Part shown: positions 13,574-42,978 of the stretch, one piece after another | Layout of the letters: each line of letters begins with the position of its first letter | Position numbering within the stretch: position 1 is the first letter of the stretch | NCBI RefSeq assembly: GCF_000243395.2 | Contig: NZ_CM001484.1 | Coordinates: 1,475,568 to 1,539,567 of the forward strand | Reading direction: 5' to 3' | From: Saccharomonospora glauca K62 | GTDB taxonomy: Bacteria; Actinomycetota; Actinomycetes; Mycobacteriales; Pseudonocardiaceae | Length of the DNA stretch: 64,000 bases | Translations under genes and position numbers: made by a program | Notes under the pieces: generated by a model | What the model was told of the DNA's origin: nothing | The model's input: the letters and a program-made list of their open reading frames with translations, nothing else | Databases searched by the model: none

Positions 13574-14489
13574 GTTTGTCGGGATTGGCGATGTCGTAGA
13601 TCGCCGCGATCCGGCCGTCGCGCACGACCATCGTGTGCACGTGCTCGTCGAGGTCGCGGTAGCGGCCCTCGCCGGGCTCGGCCGGGACGTGGAAGCCCGG
13701 ATCGCCGTTGACCAGCACCGGCCTACCGGCCGTGAGTGCCCCCGGCCGGTAGGTGGTGATCACTCCCAGCAGGAAGCGGGCGGTCTTGTCGGCGCCCACG
13801 ATGGTCCGCAAGGCCGTCCGCGCCTTGCCGTCGGAGTCGCCGACGAACCGAACGTCGGGGGCGAGGATCTCCGCCACGGCGCGCACGTCTCCGGAGTTCA
13901 CCGCGGCCAGGAATCGCTCGATCACCTGCCACTGGTGTTCCGGGCTCTCCCTCGGGGGCGGCTCGGCGGCGGCCACGGCCTTGCGGCCCCGTGACGCGTG
14001 TTGCCGGGCCGCGGTCACGGAGCAGCCCAGGATGTCGGCGATCTCGTCGAAGGGGACGTCGAAGGCGTCGTGCAACACGAACGCCACCCGCTGCTGGGGA
14101 GTGAGCGTGTCCAGCACCACCATGGCCGCCATGCGCACGGCGTCGTCCCGCACCACGACGTCGAGCGGGTCGTCCGGTTGTGCCCCGCCCAGCGGGGTCA
14201 CGATCGGTTCGGGCAGCCACTGACCGACGTAGCGTTCCCGGCGCGCCACCGCGGAACGCAGCCGGTCCAGGCACACCCGCCCCACCACCGTGGTGCTCCA
14301 GGCACGCAGGTCGCGGATCGCCGCGCGCTCGCTGTCCGGAAGACTCGCCCACCGCAGCCACGCTTCCTGCACGGCGTCCTCGGCGTCGGCCAGCGAGCCG
14401 GTGAGCCGGTATCCCACCGCCAGCAGAGGGGCGCGAAGGGCGAAGAACTCGTCGGCGTTGTTGCTGTCGTCGGCGCGTTCGGTCCCCAT
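13554..14489 (-). CDS. sigJ: ECF sigma factor, SigJ-like with SnoaL domain
   Basis: This 311-residue protein starts at the ATG at 14489. Residues about 10-75 are sigma region 2 (DEFFALRAPLLAVGYRLTGSLADAEDAVQEAWLRW), about 115-170 are region 4 (LTPQQRVAFVLHDAFDVPFDEIADILGC), and the rest is a SnoaL/NTF2-like domain (ERFLAAVNSGDVRAVAEILAPDV). This is the ECF41/SigJ architecture, in which the C-terminal domain controls activity without a separate anti-sigma factor. ECF41 genes typically adjoin carboxymuconolactone decarboxylase-like genes, as here. A frame open upstream to 16562 is antisense to dnaG and not real. Confidence 0.9.
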   Translation of the reverse strand: MGTERADDSNNADEFFALRAPLLAVGYRLTGSLADAEDAVQEAWLRWASLPDSERAAIRDLRAWSTTVVGRVCLDRLRSAVARRERYVGQWLPEPIVTPLGGAQPDDPLDVVVRDDAVRMAAMVVLDTLTPQQRVAFVLHDAFDVPFDEIADILGCSVTAARQHASRGRKAVAAAEPPPRESPEHQWQVIERFLAAVNSGDVRAVAEILAPDVRFVGDSDGKARTALRTIVGADKTARFLLGVITTYRPGALTAGRPVLVNGDPGFHVPAEPGEGRYRDLDEHVHTMVVRDGRIAAIYDIANPDKLTRIPR

Positions 14490-35428: not shown

Positions 35429-36064
35429 ATGTGGACTTCTGCCGTCGGTTCGCTGCTGGGCGGCGTCTTCGGAACGCTCGCCCGAGTCAGGCACGGCAAG
35501 CCGCTGCACCCGCGCGGCACCGTGTTCGACGCCGTGTTGCGCCGGATCGGGGCGCCGGAGCCGTGGGGCGCGGAGTGGCTGGACACCCCCGGCGAGGACC
35601 ACGGCCTGGTGCGGCTGTCCCGGTCGGTGGGGCTGCCACGGCCGTTACCCGACGTGCTGGGGCTGGCGTTCACCTTCGACGACCCGACCGGCGACCGTCA
35701 CGACCTGTTGCTCGCGACCACCGGCCTGAGTCCGGGCACGCGGTTCGTGTTGCTGCCCCGCCGGGACCCGTTCGACGCGCCGTACGGGTCGCTGTTTCCG
35801 TATCGGGCGGCGAAGGGGCTGGTGCTGCTCGCCGCGGAACCGACCTCCCGCGACCGGTTCCGCCTGCTCGCCGCGTCTCCGGCCGGGCGATGGCGGGAGT
35901 TCGCGACACTGGAGCTGACCAAAGGCACCGATGTGGAGGAAGACCAGCCGATTCGCTTCGATCCGATGCGATACCCGCTGCCGGGCCTGTCCTGGCCGCC
36001 GGCCCTCGCCCGGCTCCGCGAACCCGCGTATGCCGCCGCACGCCGGGTGCCGGCCGCGGTGTGA
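35429..36064 (+). CDS. Conserved hypothetical protein
   Basis: This 211-residue protein begins WTSAVGSLLGGVFGTLARVRHGKPLHPRGTVFDAVLRR and includes LVRLSRSVGLPRPLPDVLGLAFTF. These blocks recur in actinobacterial proteins annotated loosely as phosphodiesterase or catalase-like, with no proven function. It has no membrane span beyond a weakly hydrophobic N-terminus. The start has a poor ribosome site, so the exact N-terminus is uncertain. Confidence 0.65.
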   Translation: MWTSAVGSLLGGVFGTLARVRHGKPLHPRGTVFDAVLRRIGAPEPWGAEWLDTPGEDHGLVRLSRSVGLPRPLPDVLGLAFTFDDPTGDRHDLLLATTGLSPGTRFVLLPRRDPFDAPYGSLFPYRAAKGLVLLAAEPTSRDRFRLLAASPAGRWREFATLELTKGTDVEEDQPIRFDPMRYPLPGLSWPPALARLREPAYAAARRVPAAV

Positions 36065-36157
36065 CCGTCGATTACACAGTGTGCGGGAGCCAACTCCATC
36101 GGGTGATCCCGAGGTTGGCCCCCCACAGTGGGTGATGACCCCATTACACACGATCAT

Positions 36158-36964
36158 ATGACCAACGACTACGCGGTTCGACAGCGGCGCGGATTCCGTG
36201 CCCTGATTCCCGACCACGTCTGGGCGCGCCTGGTCCAGAGCGGAGTCCGTAAGTACCACGCCGCCGGTGAGGCGTTACTGCAGCAGGGGAGTCCCGGCGG
36301 CTGGGTGCTGTTGTGCCTGACGGGCCGTTCCAAGGTCGTCTACGCGGAGCCCGACGGGCGGGAGGTACTGCTCGCGGTCCGTGGACCCGGTGACGTCCTC
36401 GGTGAATTCTCCGGACGCGACGGCCTGCCACGCTCGGCCACGGTGCGGGCCATCGAACCGGGGCTCACGTCGAGACTGTCCGATCGCCGGTTCACGGAAC
36501 TGACGGAGCAGTTCGGCGTCACCGAGAAACTCGCCGCCTACGTGATGGGGAAGGTACGGGAAAGCGCGTCCCACACCTGGCGGCTCGCCTACCGCACGAC
36601 CGCGGTCCGGCTCACCGAACTGCTCGGCATGCTCATCGACTCGGCCGGACCCGACCACCCGCAGCCCACCACGATCGCCATGTCGCAGGAGGAACTGGCG
36701 TCGGCCCTCGGCCTGGTGCGGTCGGCGATCACCCCGGTGCTCGCCGAGTGGAAAGCGGCCGGACTGATCGCCACGGCTCGGGGCCGACTCCAGGTGCTCG
36801 ACTTCCCACGACTTCGCCGCTTCGCTGTGTCCAGTTCTGGACAGAACACGCCGTGCTCCTCCGACACCCTTGATCGCACCGCACGACGCGGCACTGGGAG
36901 GAGCACTGATGAATCACGTCGACACGAACGATCTCGGCCAGCTCACCGGAATTCTCGCCGTTGA
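36158..36964 (+). CDS. Crp/Fnr-family transcriptional regulator
   Basis: This 268-residue protein from the ATG at 36158 has an N-terminal cyclic-nucleotide-binding domain (LLQQGSPGGWVLLCLTGRSKVVY). The phosphate-binding-cassette-like segment is GDVLGEFSGRDGLPRSATVRA, keeping the Glu and Arg-Ser-Ala that contact the cyclic phosphate in CRP. The C-terminal winged helix has MSQEELASALGLVRSAITPVL. After the usual end (about residue 228, LRRFA) the frame runs on for ~40 low-quality residues into the next gene, overlapping it by 56 bp. No ribosome site precedes the ATG. A sensor for the product of the overlapping cyclase is inferred. Confidence 0.85.
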   Translation: MTNDYAVRQRRGFRALIPDHVWARLVQSGVRKYHAAGEALLQQGSPGGWVLLCLTGRSKVVYAEPDGREVLLAVRGPGDVLGEFSGRDGLPRSATVRAIEPGLTSRLSDRRFTELTEQFGVTEKLAAYVMGKVRESASHTWRLAYRTTAVRLTELLGMLIDSAGPDHPQPTTIAMSQEELASALGLVRSAITPVLAEWKAAGLIATARGRLQVLDFPRLRRFAVSSSGQNTPCSSDTLDRTARRGTGRSTDESRRHERSRPAHRNSRR

Positions 36965-37886
36965 CGTACGCCGATTCAGCCAGCATAACGATGCCCAGCA
37001 GGAGCAGATCGGGAAGCTGCTGCTCGTCATTCTGCGTGAGGCCGCGGAGCGGGCCCGACTCGGCGACATCATGGAAAACAATGTCTTCCGCGCTTTTCGT
37101 GGGGACGGCTATCTCATCGGTTTCAATCCGAACCGCGTGGCCGAGGTCGTGGACCGGTACTTCGACTCGCTGCAGGCCGAGCTACGCCGCCGTGCCCCCG
37201 AGTTGCGCGCGGCCGAGATAGAGCTGCGGTTGCGCGCGAGCCTGCACCTCGGTCCGGTGCGGTCCTTCAACAAGTTGGTCGCCGATTCTCCGTCGGGAAG
37301 GATCATGGTGGAAAGCGGCCGGATGGTCGACGCGAAGCCGGTGCGGGCGTTGCTGGATCACTCGGACCCCAATGTCACGCTCGTGGCCACGGTGCTGTCG
37401 GAAGAGGTCATGAAGAATGTGATCGAGGCCGGTCGCACCGCGCGGCAGCCGAGCGAGTTCGTCGCCGCGCCGTTACGGATCGAGGCGAAGGACTACTCCG
37501 GCACGGGCTACCTCCGAGTTCCCGTGCCCTCCGGTGACCTGCTTCGGTACGGGCTGTTGCACGGGCAGCCCGAGCAAGCCGACGAGGAGGAGCGGGACGA
37601 CGCGAAGGAGTCGACTTCCTCCGAAGGGGCTTGGGGGAACACGTTCAACGGCAACGCGCAAAAAGTGCAGCAGATCCGGGACGTGCACGGCGACGTGAAC
37701 GACAGCTCCGTTTACACCTCTATCCAGGGGAATGGGAACAACGTCGCGAAGGGCGATATCAACACAACTTCCCAGACGATCTCCGGCCCGGCGTACTCGG
37801 GAACTTTCAACACTCTGGGTGACTCCAACTTCGGATCGTCGAGCGGTCGCCGCATCAACGAAAGCGGCATGTCCGGGGACCGGTGA
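36909..37886 (+). CDS. Class III nucleotidyl-cyclase-like protein with a Gly/Asn motif tail
   Basis: The ATG at 36909 follows GGGAGGAGC and gives 325 residues. Residues 12-215 resemble a class III cyclase: Asp19 in AVDVRRFSQ and Asp66 in FRGDGYLIGF occupy the two metal-binding places, and RASLHLGPV is the expected following strand. The later substrate-binding part (SGRIMVESGRMVDAKP) diverges from classical adenylate cyclases, so activity is unproven. Residues 243-310 form a low-complexity tail with two related units, QQIRDVHGDVN and GNGNNVAKGDIN. The second recurs in the next gene's product. It overlaps a Crp-family gene upstream and the next start downstream. Confidence 0.7.
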   Translation: MNHVDTNDLGQLTGILAVDVRRFSQHNDAQQEQIGKLLLVILREAAERARLGDIMENNVFRAFRGDGYLIGFNPNRVAEVVDRYFDSLQAELRRRAPELRAAEIELRLRASLHLGPVRSFNKLVADSPSGRIMVESGRMVDAKPVRALLDHSDPNVTLVATVLSEEVMKNVIEAGRTARQPSEFVAAPLRIEAKDYSGTGYLRVPVPSGDLLRYGLLHGQPEQADEEERDDAKESTSSEGAWGNTFNGNAQKVQQIRDVHGDVNDSSVYTSIQGNGNNVAKGDINTTSQTISGPAYSGTFNTLGDSNFGSSSGRRINESGMSGDR

Positions 37887-37894
37887 GGGCTCCG

Positions 37895-40105
37895 ATGCAC
37901 GACTACGACATCGATGCCTTCGGCATGCTCGACACCCCCGAGCCCGCGCAGCCGGTGACACCGAGCGATCCCGAGCCCGAGGACGACGTCGTCGGTGCCT
38001 CAATGCCCACTCCGGAGGGAGCGCCCGCACCGCCGGTACCGTCGCAGCAGGGGGAGGCCACGTCAGGCTCCGGCACCAATTGGATCGATGGGCACGGCAA
38101 CAACATCGCGCACCGGGACATCAACCAAGTCACCGTTTTCGAGCTCGGTTCCGAGATTGTCCAAGAGCTCGCGCGTGCCCGGAGGAGGGAACGCGTCGGG
38201 CGCGGTATCCAGGACCCGGAAGCGCTACGGAGGTTGGCGGACAAGTATGTCGCGCCGGACAGGCTCCTCGAAAGCTCGGAGGGGGACGAGGAGTCAGCGC
38301 TGCGAATCCTCGAAACTCGCAGAGTCCTCCTGCTCTGGGCCAGGGAACGGGACGGTGGCCAGCTCGCCGCGGCGAGCCGGCTCGGCTACGAGCTGAGCGA
38401 GCACGCTCGACGCCGGAGGCATGCTCCTCTGATCGTCCGCGAAGAACTCGTGGACCCGGACTTGAGTTTGAAACCGAAAGAGTTGCTGGTCGAGAACGAA
38501 CCGGCCACGGTCATCCTCGACTGTCGTGATGCCGATGAGAAAGATCTCCGGGCCGTTCAACGCAACCTGAGTGACTTGAGTGACCAGCTCCCTCACTACC
38601 GGAGCTACCTCATCGTCATCCTCCCCGCGGAACACCAACGCCGGTTCGAGGACAGCTTCCCCGGCAGAGTGCACGAGCTGGGCAAACCCTCGTCCGTTGC
38701 CGTGCTCGAAAGCCATGTCGGCCCCGAAGCGCTACCCGGAATCCGGGCCGACGCGGACGTCGTGGAGAAGCTGGAGGCCCTGTGGCCGCCGACAGTGGCC
38801 CGCGTCGCGGATCTCGTTCGAGAGCGTCTTACTCCGGAGGCCGACCCGGTCGAGGTGGTTCGCGCCGCACTTGACGACGAGACCGTCGGACAAAGCGACA
38901 AGCTTCGCGGGGTGATCGAGGAGAAACAGCAAGACAAGGACGCCGAATGGCTTTCCCTTCTCCTGGCCTCCTCGGTGTTGGAGGGTGCCTCACCGCAGCA
39001 CATCGCCGCGGCCTCCGATGTGCTGATGAAGCACAATAAGATCGATGTCGCCGATGAGGCGGCGCCGATACTGCGGGCCAGTCCGTTCGCTCGACTACGA
39101 CGTTTGGAAGAGGACGGCTGGTTCGATCTCGGGCAGCGGGGACTCGTTCCTTCCGGGATCGGGGGTGAGGTGCTCCGCCACTTCTGGCGAGAGCATCCCG
39201 ACCTGCACACCCCCGTGCAGGACTGGCTTACGGAGCTTCCCGAGGCTTTGCGGGGTCTTGACCGGGGAGAACTGGAACAACTCGCCGACCGGGTCGCCGA
39301 CCTCGCCGTTGAGGGCGGTGCTTGGCTCGCGCTCTACCTCGCGGCGAATTGGGCCGGGACGAAAGCCGGTGAGAACTCGGGAGGGCAGCGCACCTCCACC
39401 GCTCCCGCCGACAGGTCCCGACGGTCGATCGCCGTGCGCTTGCTGACCACGGCCGCGACGGACTCGGTGTTGGGCAGGCCAGTGCGTAACCGCCTCTGGT
39501 ATTGGTCGCGAGACGGAAGCGCGGATCTGAAGCTGTTGACCGCCGAAGTCTGCGCCGGTATCGGAGCCGCGTTCCCCCGTAACGCCCTCACCAGGCTCAA
39601 ACACCTGGCGAACTCCGACAACGAGGACGTACGGGACGCTGTGCTTCAGGCGCTGCGTCAGCTCGGTGGCGAACTCGGTGTGTCCCGGTTCCTGCGTTAC
39701 CTGACCGAATGGTTCGACCAGGCTTCTCCCAGTCGATTGGCGGTGCTGGCCACCGCCGTCGGTCGGGTGTTCGCCGATCAGACGGCTCCCGTGGAGGGCG
39801 ACGCGGTCGAGCTGTTCTGGCGGCACGCTGTGACCAATCTTCCTCTGGAAGACCTCGGGGTGGTGGTGAAGAGCTGGTTGCACGCGGCCGCGCGGATGGA
39901 CCGGGACGGTCGCAGCGGCATGATCGAACTGCTCGTGCGGGCCACCGAGGGTAAGCCCCTCCACATCTCTCACGTGCAATACGCCAGTCAGCCTCGTCCT
40001 CCGGAGTTGAAGGCCGACTGTTTCTCCGACGAGGCCATCGCCGAGGTGACGCAGCAGTTGTGGACCCGACTCGACGAGGTCGGTCCTATTTGGGTAGAGG
40101 GGTGA
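37895..40105 (+). CDS. STAND-like protein with degenerate P-loop and helical repeats
   Basis: The ATG at 37895 has an AGGG site; a GTG at 37883 overlapping the cyclase stop is the alternative. In 736 residues: a disordered Pro/Glu N-terminus (1-60), the motif GHGNNIAHRDIN (66-77), then a region like the front of actinobacterial STAND NTPases (DPEALRRLADKYVAPDRL). Where a P-loop should lie it reads RRVLLLWARERDGGQLAAA, with no GxxxxGKT. A Walker-B-like PATVILDCRDAD (about 203-214) remains. The C-terminal half is all-helical, HEAT-like (NEDVRDAVLQALRQLGGELG). An inactive-NTPase sensor/scaffold is the best guess. Confidence 0.65.
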   Translation: MHDYDIDAFGMLDTPEPAQPVTPSDPEPEDDVVGASMPTPEGAPAPPVPSQQGEATSGSGTNWIDGHGNNIAHRDINQVTVFELGSEIVQELARARRRERVGRGIQDPEALRRLADKYVAPDRLLESSEGDEESALRILETRRVLLLWARERDGGQLAAASRLGYELSEHARRRRHAPLIVREELVDPDLSLKPKELLVENEPATVILDCRDADEKDLRAVQRNLSDLSDQLPHYRSYLIVILPAEHQRRFEDSFPGRVHELGKPSSVAVLESHVGPEALPGIRADADVVEKLEALWPPTVARVADLVRERLTPEADPVEVVRAALDDETVGQSDKLRGVIEEKQQDKDAEWLSLLLASSVLEGASPQHIAAASDVLMKHNKIDVADEAAPILRASPFARLRRLEEDGWFDLGQRGLVPSGIGGEVLRHFWREHPDLHTPVQDWLTELPEALRGLDRGELEQLADRVADLAVEGGAWLALYLAANWAGTKAGENSGGQRTSTAPADRSRRSIAVRLLTTAATDSVLGRPVRNRLWYWSRDGSADLKLLTAEVCAGIGAAFPRNALTRLKHLANSDNEDVRDAVLQALRQLGGELGVSRFLRYLTEWFDQASPSRLAVLATAVGRVFADQTAPVEGDAVELFWRHAVTNLPLEDLGVVVKSWLHAAARMDRDGRSGMIELLVRATEGKPLHISHVQYASQPRPPELKADCFSDEAIAEVTQQLWTRLDEVGPIWVEG

Positions 40106-40109
40106 ATCC

Positions 40110-40853
40110 GTGTCGATGGGATTGCGCGGATGGTGGCATCGCTTCCAGGATTACGAAAGCCCCGGTTCGGAGAGCCAAGATCATGTTCAAGTGAGCATTC
40201 AGCTGGCCAGTGTTGATGACTCCTTGTACTTCACCGCTGAGATCGCCTTCTGGGCGTGGTGGAACGGCGGCGGCAGGATGCCCGATCGCGAAAGCGTGTG
40301 GGACATCGCGAGAAGTGGGATAACTCGTCGCGCTGAGGAAGTCAGCACACGGCACCGGTTGACCGCGACCGAGCGAGTACGGGCGGAGCTCAACGAAGCA
40401 CTGCTGGCGTGGAAACCGGTTGGTGGCTCGTACGTCCGGGCCCGCGGGCGTTGTTTGGCGGTGACGGCGGACCCCGAACTCGTAGAAGCTGTGGCAGCGC
40501 ACGAACGGAGCAAGAGTCAACAGCTCATGATCTCGTGGAGCGAGCAGAGACGCCAGCAACAGCGGGAACAAATGAGTTCGCTGCTCCTCGATCCACTACG
40601 GGCCACGGCCTGGTGGCTGCTGAACAACCAGGAGAAGGCCACCGAGGTAAAGGAAGTCGCGACGACATTCCTGGAACTTCAGGGCATGCTGAAGCCCGCG
40701 GCCCGAACCGAGTCCGCGGGGAAGCTGGTCGATGAGTTCCTGGATACGAAGGACGCGGCAATCAAGGTTCATTTCCTCCACACTTTGAAGAAATGTTTCC
40801 TCGGCTACGACCGCGAGGATCTGGCAACCCGATTGTCCGCCCTTGAGGAATGA
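40110..40853 (+). CDS. Helical protein of unknown function, third gene of the cyclase/STAND-like operon
   Basis: The GTG at 40110 is preceded by GAGGGG and gives 247 residues, 4 bp after the previous stop. The N-terminal half is alpha/beta (HVQVSIQLASVDDSLYFTAE, then ERVRAELNEALLAWKPVGGS and YVRARGRCLAVTADPELVE). The middle is a long charged helix (EQRRQQQREQMSSLLLDPLRATAWWLL) and the end is helical (KVHFLHTLKKCFLGYDREDLATRL). No catalytic motif, signal or membrane span is evident. The layout recalls SPFH-like helix-rich scaffolds but is not recognised. Shared operon and terminator tie it to the cyclase and STAND-like genes. Confidence 0.6.
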   Translation: MSMGLRGWWHRFQDYESPGSESQDHVQVSIQLASVDDSLYFTAEIAFWAWWNGGGRMPDRESVWDIARSGITRRAEEVSTRHRLTATERVRAELNEALLAWKPVGGSYVRARGRCLAVTADPELVEAVAAHERSKSQQLMISWSEQRRQQQREQMSSLLLDPLRATAWWLLNNQEKATEVKEVATTFLELQGMLKPAARTESAGKLVDEFLDTKDAAIKVHFLHTLKKCFLGYDREDLATRLSALEE

Positions 40854-40859
40854 AGTGAC

Positions 40860-40908
40860 GACGTTCGCGTGTCCGGTCGGGGGCGGACACGCGAACGTCA
40901 TCGCCTTT
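40860..40908 (+). terminator. Strong hairpin closing the cyclase/STAND-like operon
   Basis: GACGTTCGCGTGTCCG (40860-40875) and CGGACACGCGAACGTC (40884-40899) make a perfect 16-bp stem with an 8-base loop, followed shortly by TTTT. It lies 6 bases after the third gene's stop. Confidence 0.9.
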
Positions 40909-40984
40909 TCGAAGACGTGGGTGCGGAACCCGAGTTCTCGCAACTACGTCAGCGTGTCCATGTCGGAGAAGTCGGCGGCCGAGC

Positions 40985-41926
40985 TCATCGGCGCGCCACT
41001 TCGTCGAGTCGAGCACCGATTTCCGCGACGACGTAGTCGATCGCCTCCGCGCTGCCGGGGAGCACGTTCACCATCGTGAAGAAACCGTGCGTCTGCGACT
41101 TGAACAGTCGGCTCCGCACCGGGACACCGGCCTTCTCGAGTGCGGCCACGTAGGCCTCTCCCTCGTCCCGCAGCGGGTCGTGTTCCGCGAGGAGGACCAC
41201 GGCGGGCGGCAGACCGTCGAAGCGTTCGGCGAGCAGCGGACTGGCCTCCGGTTCACCGCGCCGCTCCTCGGGCGCGTAGTGGTTCCAGAACCAGATCATG
41301 CCCTCACGGGTGAGAATCTGCTGGTTCTCCGGATCCGTGTAGGACGGGGTGTCGAAGTCGGCCGCCGTCACGGGATACACGAGCACCTGCAGGGCGAGTT
41401 CCGGTCCCGAGCGGTCGCGGGCCCGGTGGGCCATCACCGCGGCGAGGTTGCCGCCCGCGGAGTCACCGGCGACGATCAGCGGGACGTCGGCTCCGGCGAT
41501 CTCCGTCCCGTTCCGGTGAGCCCACACCAATGCCTGCCACGAGTCCTCGACGGCCGTGGGGTACTTGTGTTCGGGAGCCTTGCGATAGTCGACCAGCACC
41601 ACGGCGCAGCGCGTCCGGGCGGCGAGCTGCCTGCCGAGGGTGTCGAACTGGTCGATGTCACCGAGCACCCACCCGCCCCCGTGGTAGTAGACGATGACTC
41701 CGGCGGGGATCTCGACCGGCACGAGCACCCGCACGGCGAACTCGTCGCCGTCCGAGGTGGGCAGCCGCACGTCGTCGACGCGCAGCATCTCCGGGCCGCG
41801 CCCGTAGAGCTCCGTGATCGCCGACCCGGCCTTACGGGCTTCGTCGGGTTCCTGCTCGTGCAGAGGCTTTCCGCCTTGCGCGGCCATTTGCGCGAGAAGA
41901 TTCGCCGTCGCTTCGTCCAAAGCCAT
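40985..41926 (-). CDS. Alpha/beta hydrolase, hormone-sensitive-lipase-type esterase
   Basis: The ATG at 41926 after GGGAGCGG gives 313 residues. HSL-family motifs are complete: the oxyanion HGGG in VYYHGGGWVLGD, the nucleophile elbow GDSAGGNLAAVMAH, the acid in LLAEHDPLRDEGEAYV and the His in SQTHGFFTMV. It should hydrolyse short-chain esters in the cytoplasm. The last ~85 bases before the operon terminator downstream contain no gene. Confidence 0.92.
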   Translation of the reverse strand: MALDEATANLLAQMAAQGGKPLHEQEPDEARKAGSAITELYGRGPEMLRVDDVRLPTSDGDEFAVRVLVPVEIPAGVIVYYHGGGWVLGDIDQFDTLGRQLAARTRCAVVLVDYRKAPEHKYPTAVEDSWQALVWAHRNGTEIAGADVPLIVAGDSAGGNLAAVMAHRARDRSGPELALQVLVYPVTAADFDTPSYTDPENQQILTREGMIWFWNHYAPEERRGEPEASPLLAERFDGLPPAVVLLAEHDPLRDEGEAYVAALEKAGVPVRSRLFKSQTHGFFTMVNVLPGSAEAIDYVVAEIGARLDEVARR

Positions 41927-42198
41927 GCCCGCTCCCCAGTCTTCTCTTTCGAAAGCCACGGAGGTCGCCGTCGTGAGCGCAAAGCGATCATAGTTTCCGG
42001 GGACCGACATTGATCGGCTGCGAAGAGGCGGGGCGACCGCCCCGCGAAGCGACGTGGTCGCCGCACCGGACTCCGCGACCACACGGCCCGACACCGGCGA
42101 GCCGTAGCCCCACGCCGATCCGGGAAGGCCGCGTCAGTCATCGAGGCGGTGTGGTCGCACGTCGACTCTCGCGGTGACCCCGGTTCCGCCGACAACCC

Positions 42199-42978
42199 TC
42201 ACCGTGGCTGCTCGCGCGGACAGTGGTAGGCGGTGCGACCACCCACCGTGTCGGTCACCACCGGGGCTCCGCAGTCGCGGCAGTACTTCTGCTTGTAGAC
42301 CTTCCGGGCCTCGGATTCGGGAATCGTGGCCCGATCGGGGACGTCCATCGTGACGATGCGTCCGTCCTCCACGGCCCGTTCCATCATGCGCCGCAGCTCC
42401 GCCCACAACGTCCGGGCTTCGGAGTCGGTCAGCTCCCGGCACGGCCGTCGCGGGGCGATGCCAACGGCATGCAGGGCCTCGTTGCGGAAGACGTTGCCCA
42501 CACCGGAGATCACCGACTGATCGAGCAGGGCCGCGCCGACGGCTCCGGGCGCCGCGCGCAACGCCGCGACAGCGGCCTCGGCATCGGCATCGGACCGCAG
42601 CGGGTCCGGCCCCAACCCCCGTACCAGGTCCCGCACCGCTTCCTCCGACAGCAGCTCGCACCGCAACGGCGCGAGCAAGTCCCACGCCACGACCTCGCTC
42701 GCCAGCCGCAACCGCACCTGCGGCAGCGCCGGTCTTCCCGGATCGTCGAACCGCAGCCACTTCCCTTGCATGCCGAGGTGCACGTGGAGCCGTTCGTCGC
42801 GCGAGAAGTCGACGAGGAGGTGCTTGCCGTGGGCGTCGGTGCGCCGCAGCACCGCGCCGTGCAGGCGTGCGGCCTCCGCGCCGAACCGGCCCCGGGGCGA
42901 GCTCACCGACAGGCGGTGCCCGGTGAGGTCCGCGCCCAGCTCACGCGCCAGCCGATGAACGACGTGTCCCTCCGGCAC
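42199..42978 (-). CDS. nei: Fpg/Nei-family DNA glycosylase (endonuclease VIII-like)
   Basis: This 259-residue protein begins MPEGHVVHRLA, with Pro2 as the nucleophile and Glu3 as catalytic acid. It contains the H2TH region (LLDQSVISGVGNVFRNEALHAVGI) and a C-terminal zinc-finger-like segment CRDCGAPVV...YHCPREQ. The fourth zinc cysteine of the usual CxxC is a glutamate here; the His before the third Cys might substitute. It should excise oxidised bases. It lies just downstream of the SnoaL-like gene on the same strand. Confidence 0.88.
   Translation of the reverse strand: MPEGHVVHRLARELGADLTGHRLSVSSPRGRFGAEAARLHGAVLRRTDAHGKHLLVDFSRDERLHVHLGMQGKWLRFDDPGRPALPQVRLRLASEVVAWDLLAPLRCELLSEEAVRDLVRGLGPDPLRSDADAEAAVAALRAAPGAVGAALLDQSVISGVGNVFRNEALHAVGIAPRRPCRELTDSEARTLWAELRRMMERAVEDGRIVTMDVPDRATIPESEARKVYKQKYCRDCGAPVVTDTVGGRTAYHCPREQPR

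Follow-up and report, generated by a model that had tools for sequence, protein, structure and literature searches.

The operon studied here lies in a stretch of 64,000 nucleotides from Saccharomonospora glauca K62 (hereafter the window; the source genome comprises 4.56 Mb on two contigs). It consists of four ORFs on the same strand, in the order Crp, CYC (the cyclase-fold protein), P3 and P4, and has a hairpin at its end. An earlier note on this DNA had described a tight, one-directional four-gene cluster that closes with a perfect 16-bp hairpin and is poorer in GC than its flanks, and each part of this description held. The first 56 bp of CYC lie inside the Crp ORF, P3 overlaps CYC by 4 bp and P4 follows P3 after a gap of 4 bp. 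The hairpin (dG -39 kcal/mol) gave a z score of -5.8 against dinucleotide shuffles, and the GC content of the operon was 61-67% compared with ~70% in its surroundings. The features referred to below are as follows.

36050..42196, no strand: inserted segment carrying the operon and an esterase gene, absent from three sister species
36099..36112, + strand: candidate operator upstream of crp, a perfect palindrome (TCGGGTGATCCCGA)
36158..36964, + strand: Crp/Fnr-type transcription factor, 268 aa from ATG, with cNMP_binding and HTH_Crp_2 domains
36909..37886, + strand: CYC, class III nucleotide-cyclase-fold protein of 325 aa with an unstructured C-terminal motif tail (AF2 model and fold matches)
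37638..37703, + strand: CYC tail motif 1 (NTFNGNAQKVQQIRDVHGDVND), RHIM/BASS3-like as judged by eye
37722..37763, + strand: CYC tail motif 2 (IQGNGNNVAKGDIN), matched to the P3 N-terminus
37883..40105, + strand: P3, nSTAND3-like STAND-type protein of 740 aa with a degenerate P-loop and a HEAT-like C-terminus (Pfam matches in its family and AF2 model)
38084..38125, + strand: P3 N-terminal motif (IDGHGNNIAHRDIN), the partner of CYC motif 2
38204..38890, + strand: STAND/AAA+ domain of P3, model residues 105-333 (AF2 model, fold match)
40110..40853, + strand: P4, 247 aa, of no known family (defined by a BLAST cluster)
40860-40875/40884-40899, + strand: terminator-like hairpin with perfect 16-bp arms
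40985-42094: esterase gene within the inserted segment

The cluster had also been placed in an accessory zone, and comparison with related genomes bore this out. The segment 36050-42196 (6.1 kb) is missing from three sister Saccharomonospora species, in which the gene upstream of it (35429-36064) and a Nei-type gene (42199-42978) are direct neighbours and the flanks meet within ~4-7 bp; the unit is therefore accessory. In genome G004, an operon of 79% identity lies beside the same upstream gene but on that gene's other side. This operon (L021) lies between a fragment and an intact copy of the window's upstream gene (L021:7987-8233, 13732-14384), suggesting duplication or a rearrangement of the target during insertion. 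Searches of phages, plasmids and viral contigs yielded no relatives of CYC and thus gave no support to transport of the unit by known mobile elements.

The first gene product matched both the cNMP-binding domain and HTH_Crp_2 in Pfam (E = 6e-13 and 6e-12, respectively), and its best solved relatives were actinobacterial GlxR-type regulators (E = 3e-34). The phosphate-binding cassette (G..GE and R) was intact and invariant in 63 Crp relatives, such that the protein combines the cassette Glu and Arg with the HTH of cNMP-responsive regulators, in line with the cNMP-type Crp proposed in the earlier note. The candidate operator was noticed only by reading the sequences and is therefore post hoc: TCGRGTGATC occurs just upstream of crp in 16/71 loci (maximum among shuffles, 1), and a general dyad search of the regions upstream of crp gave no signal above shuffles. 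The site TCGRGTGATCYCGA has one exact occurrence in the whole 4.56-Mb genome, at this crp promoter. It is reasonable to infer from these sequences that Crp may regulate itself through the palindrome at 36099-36112.

A Pfam scan of CYC gave no match, and a CYC profile matched the cyclase Ma1120 (E = 4e-4). The core of the AF2 model had pLDDT >90, with a low-confidence tail, and matched CyaC (VIA Z 15.9; 2.8 A over 169 residues) and Ma1120 (Foldseek E = 1.7e-8). We regard the class III cyclase fold as firm. The two metal ligands singled out in the earlier note, Asp19 and Asp66, were invariant in 68/68 CYC relatives, as were Arg138 and Lys194, down to 19% identity. CYC thus keeps the two metal-binding Asp and the transition-state Arg (Arg138) of class III cyclases, and a family stripped of its metal ligands, which would have counted against the note's reading, was not what we found. 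At the position where class III cyclases canonically have the transition-state Asn, four residues ahead of the Arg, 66/68 relatives have Val or Ile, and the base-specifying positions vary among the 68. The substrate of CYC is therefore unreadable from sequence and its catalysis may be altered or lost; given the missing Asn, we file CYC as a member of the fold and not as a proven canonical cyclase.

Matches to nSTAND3 (PF20720) were obtained for 28/63 members of the P3 family (best E = 1e-6), the window copy being among those with no match. The AF2 model of P3 (pLDDT 85) has an AAA+ fold (VIA Z 11.8) followed by predicted helical repeats. Its Foldseek and VIA matches were a mixture of AAA+ and HEAT proteins from which no single family stood out; they included structures of Avs5, in which an nSTAND3 domain is also present (PMC12931631). 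Among 63 P3 P-loops, ~28 read G..G.G[R/L], 34 including that of the window had no clear loop and one had GK. Since the functional Walker A lysine of STAND NTPases is missing from almost the whole family and the window copy has a degenerate loop, we doubt that P3 acts as an ATP-driven switch. The 'inactive-STAND-like' protein with helical repeats of the earlier note survives as a degenerate STAND-like protein and not as an iSTAND in the published sense, which needs MoxR and vWA partners that the unit lacks. The fourth genes fell almost entirely into one BLAST cluster (66/68), and 32/68 P4 relatives had an N-terminal TM-like segment that is absent from the window copy; P4 had no significant match in Pfam or the PDB. 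PADLOC gave weak matches for P3 and had no model, including PycC, that recognised CYC, nor did any of the scans pick out a known defence gene among the four.

A profile search detected relatives of CYC in 152/249 genomes of the Pseudonocardiaceae (29/46 genera) and in only 7/296 genomes across the phylum, with up to 12 CYC-type matches per genome. The genes also travel together, as the earlier note had anticipated. Of 81 loci, mostly from Pseudonocardiaceae, that were mapped with profiles of all four proteins, ~70 had Crp, CYC and P3 adjacent, on one strand and in a constant order, and P3 lay within 1.5 kb on the same strand for 66/77 strong CYC places when two family-wide searches were compared. 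This arrangement of CYC and P3 is far beyond chance. Thirteen loci in named genomes of a second collection, retrieved with a closer alignment as the query (a single CYC sequence gave no matches), repeat the Crp-CYC-P3 order, including one from Actinopolymorpha, which lies outside the family. At the Actinopolymorpha locus (L156:5956-6877), the coding sequence of CYC is divided between two reading frames, with P4-like genes on both sides of the unit. The unit, which occurs in many soil actinobacteria, is real, conserved and apparently undescribed; a literature search among papers available without subscription found no published description, which leaves absence unproven.

Gly and Asn abound in the C-terminal 60-110 residues of CYC and in the N-terminal 20-100 residues of P3, two regions that lack structure in the models. 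They share a motif of 15-45 residues that is alike within a locus and different between loci (for example, GTVIGSNQGPVQTGDGVQVN / GTVIGASEGPVLTGSGAQVT in L125, GIERISGGVGNVFNHPTG / GIGRISGGVDNVFNDTRG in L095 and IQGNGNNVAKGDIN / IDGHGNNIAHRDIN in the window). The mean score of CYC tails was 71.0 against their own P3 N-terminus compared with 32.8 against the P3 of other loci, and the best of 20,000 partner permutations reached 40.1. The own P3 partner ranked first in 32/66 loci and within the top three in 45/66, and the match had p<0.01 against shuffled tails in 52/66. Identical motif residues shared codons at a frequency of 0.64 versus 0.50 expected, so a local duplication or conversion of DNA may account for some of the likeness. 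Nevertheless, DNA identity was only 62%, and in the window pair, the same codons were used in 10/21 identical residues, which is the level expected of independent codons. As judged by sequence, these matched motifs are the signature of NLR/effector amyloid-signalling pairs, in which the C-terminal motif of a bacterial effector is matched to the N-terminus of an adjacent STAND protein (PMC7889193, PMC8086366).

Stand-alone CYC proteins carry only the RHIM/BASS3-like motif (motif 1 type, by eye); those ending in an RHIM-like motif were found at L028, L118, L030, L109, L115, L117 and L132. Some of them have, encoded nearby, an NB-ARC protein or another large STAND-like protein with a similar motif at its N-terminus. 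These include an NB-ARC-TPR receptor (L028:5988-9938, + strand) and, at L118 (1934-5140; 8142-8942), a STAND-like protein ~3 kb from the stand-alone CYC that had only a weak NPHP3_N match. Elsewhere in the S. glauca genome, an NB-ARC protein (L142, C1:1263683) has an N-terminus, MTNHLGGDNVGINIQGSKVEHATITNTVVIQ, that resembles another G/N-rich signalling motif.

Thirty strong P3 places were listed without CYC, and 29 of these have a TIR protein in its place (called by Pfam TIR_2 in the three that were scanned, E ~1e-9 to 1e-10, and by a profile built from them in the others). TIR tails also scored higher against their own P3 than against others (48.2 versus 33.8, p<=5e-5). Crp was adjacent to CYC in 70/70 CYC+P3 loci of the mapped set and adjacent to TIR in 0/29, a contrast that is one between clades and rests on few events, since CYC and TIR replace each other only about twice on the P3 tree; the value of a Fisher test on these counts overstates the evidence. 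One further CYC+P3 locus (L166), beyond the 70, has no Crp. In its CYC (L166:3149-4369, + strand), the second metal site reads GE instead of GD and the invariant Lys is gone, whereas the sister locus, L134, has Crp. The absence of Crp beside an altered CYC is the pattern expected if Crp exists to read a cyclase product. The TIR and nSTAND-HEAT two-gene units without Crp (L157-L165 and L167-L186, e.g. L169 and L163) form a sister family with matched tail and N-terminus motifs that occurs in many Pseudonocardiaceae.

The matched CYC/P3 motif, the interchange with TIR and the strict coupling of Crp to the cyclase, none of which figured in the earlier note, together suggest a mechanism. We think it probable, if only modestly so, that the operon is a receptor-gated cyclic-nucleotide circuit in which P3 clusters and activates CYC through the matched motifs and Crp reads the product. 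The case draws on the conserved operon, the predicted folds, the invariant residues, the matched motifs, the TIR alternative and the co-occurrence of Crp, all of them read from sequence. We infer a direction of signalling that would begin with P3, a STAND-type protein with HEAT repeats, as the sensor. Once P3 assembles, its N-terminal G/N-rich motif would meet the motif of the CYC tail and gather CYC molecules, with amyloid-like templating as the probable means. In both class III cyclases and TIR enzymes, the active site forms between subunits. Because the class III active site lies between two subunits, gathering CYC would switch on the synthesis of a cyclic mononucleotide, and activation of either enzyme by gathering via P3 would explain why cyclase or TIR can occupy the same slot. 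The CYC product would then be bound by the co-encoded Crp, which would alter how the operon itself is transcribed, acting at the palindrome (36099-36112), and perhaps how other genes are. P4 may be an accessory part, anchored in the membrane in about half of the relatives. A use of the operon in defence, against invaders, is plausible in view of its relatives and its mobility. We are more tentative about the full relay, in which prion-like templating by a STAND receptor would lead to a cyclic mononucleotide, then Crp and then transcription, with cyclase and TIR interchangeable on one receptor family; this is possible, with doubt outweighing belief.

The same four genes might instead form an ordinary cAMP-type signalling operon, with P3 and P4 as scaffolds for a developmental or stress signal and the motif as a plain assembly tag, involving neither immunity nor amyloid. 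In favour of this, the four genes contain no toxic or nuclease domain, Crp is a transcription factor and not a killing effector, and the genome has no exact operator site other than that at the operon's own promoter. However, the patchy presence of the unit, its insertion at an otherwise empty site, the multiple CYC-type matches in a single genome and the exchange of cyclase for TIR resemble conflict systems and not housekeeping, and we consider this explanation rather unlikely. The replacement of the transition-state Asn by Val or Ile and the unconserved base-specifying residues raise another prospect, that CYC is a catalytically dead cyclase fold whose role is limited to nucleotide binding, while Crp responds to the cAMP of the host cell and does no more than control how the operon is expressed. 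Inactive enzymes are indeed common in such systems (PMC7159879). This is nonetheless improbable in our view: both metal Asp, the Arg and the Lys persist in all 68 divergent members, Crp accompanies CYC but in no case TIR, and Ma1120, the closest solved relative, was crystallised as an adenylyl cyclase with ATP and has Ala at the Asn position.

The receptor-gated circuit that we favour would represent a new wiring of an immune-type receptor to a chemical messenger. To our knowledge, the effectors linked to bacterial amyloid-type receptor/effector pairs to date are membrane-acting, TIR or CHAT proteins, and what their signalling leads to is not settled. A pair with a cyclic-nucleotide output, and with the sensor of that output encoded next door, would make the outcome measurable: mass spectrometry could follow the messenger, and transcription would report the response. 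That one receptor family works with either cyclase or TIR, and that Crp accompanies only the cyclase, would likewise constitute a built-in test that separates the sensing parts from the output parts.

The earlier note had judged the layout to be neither CBASS nor Pycsar, and we concur. Membership in CBASS was rejected, as there is no CD-NTase domain in the four proteins and the enzyme has a class III cyclase fold. Pycsar systems (PycC with PycTM or PycTIR; PMC11224242) likewise combine a class III cyclase fold and a cyclic-nucleotide-binding protein in one operon. However, the nucleotide receptor here is a DNA-binding Crp with an HTH and not a membrane or TIR effector, and the operon includes a STAND protein with a matched motif; membership was rejected on account of this receptor and the lack of a PADLOC PycC match for CYC. 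The MoxR-vWA iSTAND ternary systems share an inactive STAND-like component and occasional cNMP cyclase domains, but are reportedly almost absent from actinobacteria (PMC7159879, PMC8195603). This membership was also rejected, since none of the four proteins matches MoxR or vWA models and the conserved unit is confined to the four genes. Avs5 and other nSTAND3 proteins (PMC12931631) resemble P3 in having an nSTAND3-type NTPase domain and C-terminal helical repeats, whereas the effector here is a separate gene linked by the motif, not a fused domain, and the P-loop Lys is absent. The likeness to NLR/BASS pairs (Dyrka 2020; reviewed in PMC7889193) extends to adjacent genes, a short G/N-rich motif at the receptor N-terminus and the effector C-terminus, several motif types, a distribution mainly in filamentous bacteria and TIR among the effectors; the likeness of CYC motif 1 to RHIM/BASS3 was judged by eye. 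In contrast to those pairs, the STAND P-loop is degenerate, the effector has a class III cyclase fold, which is not among the effectors named in the cited literature, and a cNMP-sensing Crp is added. The unit would thus appear to be a variant of the STAND/effector signalling pair whose output is a cyclic nucleotide.
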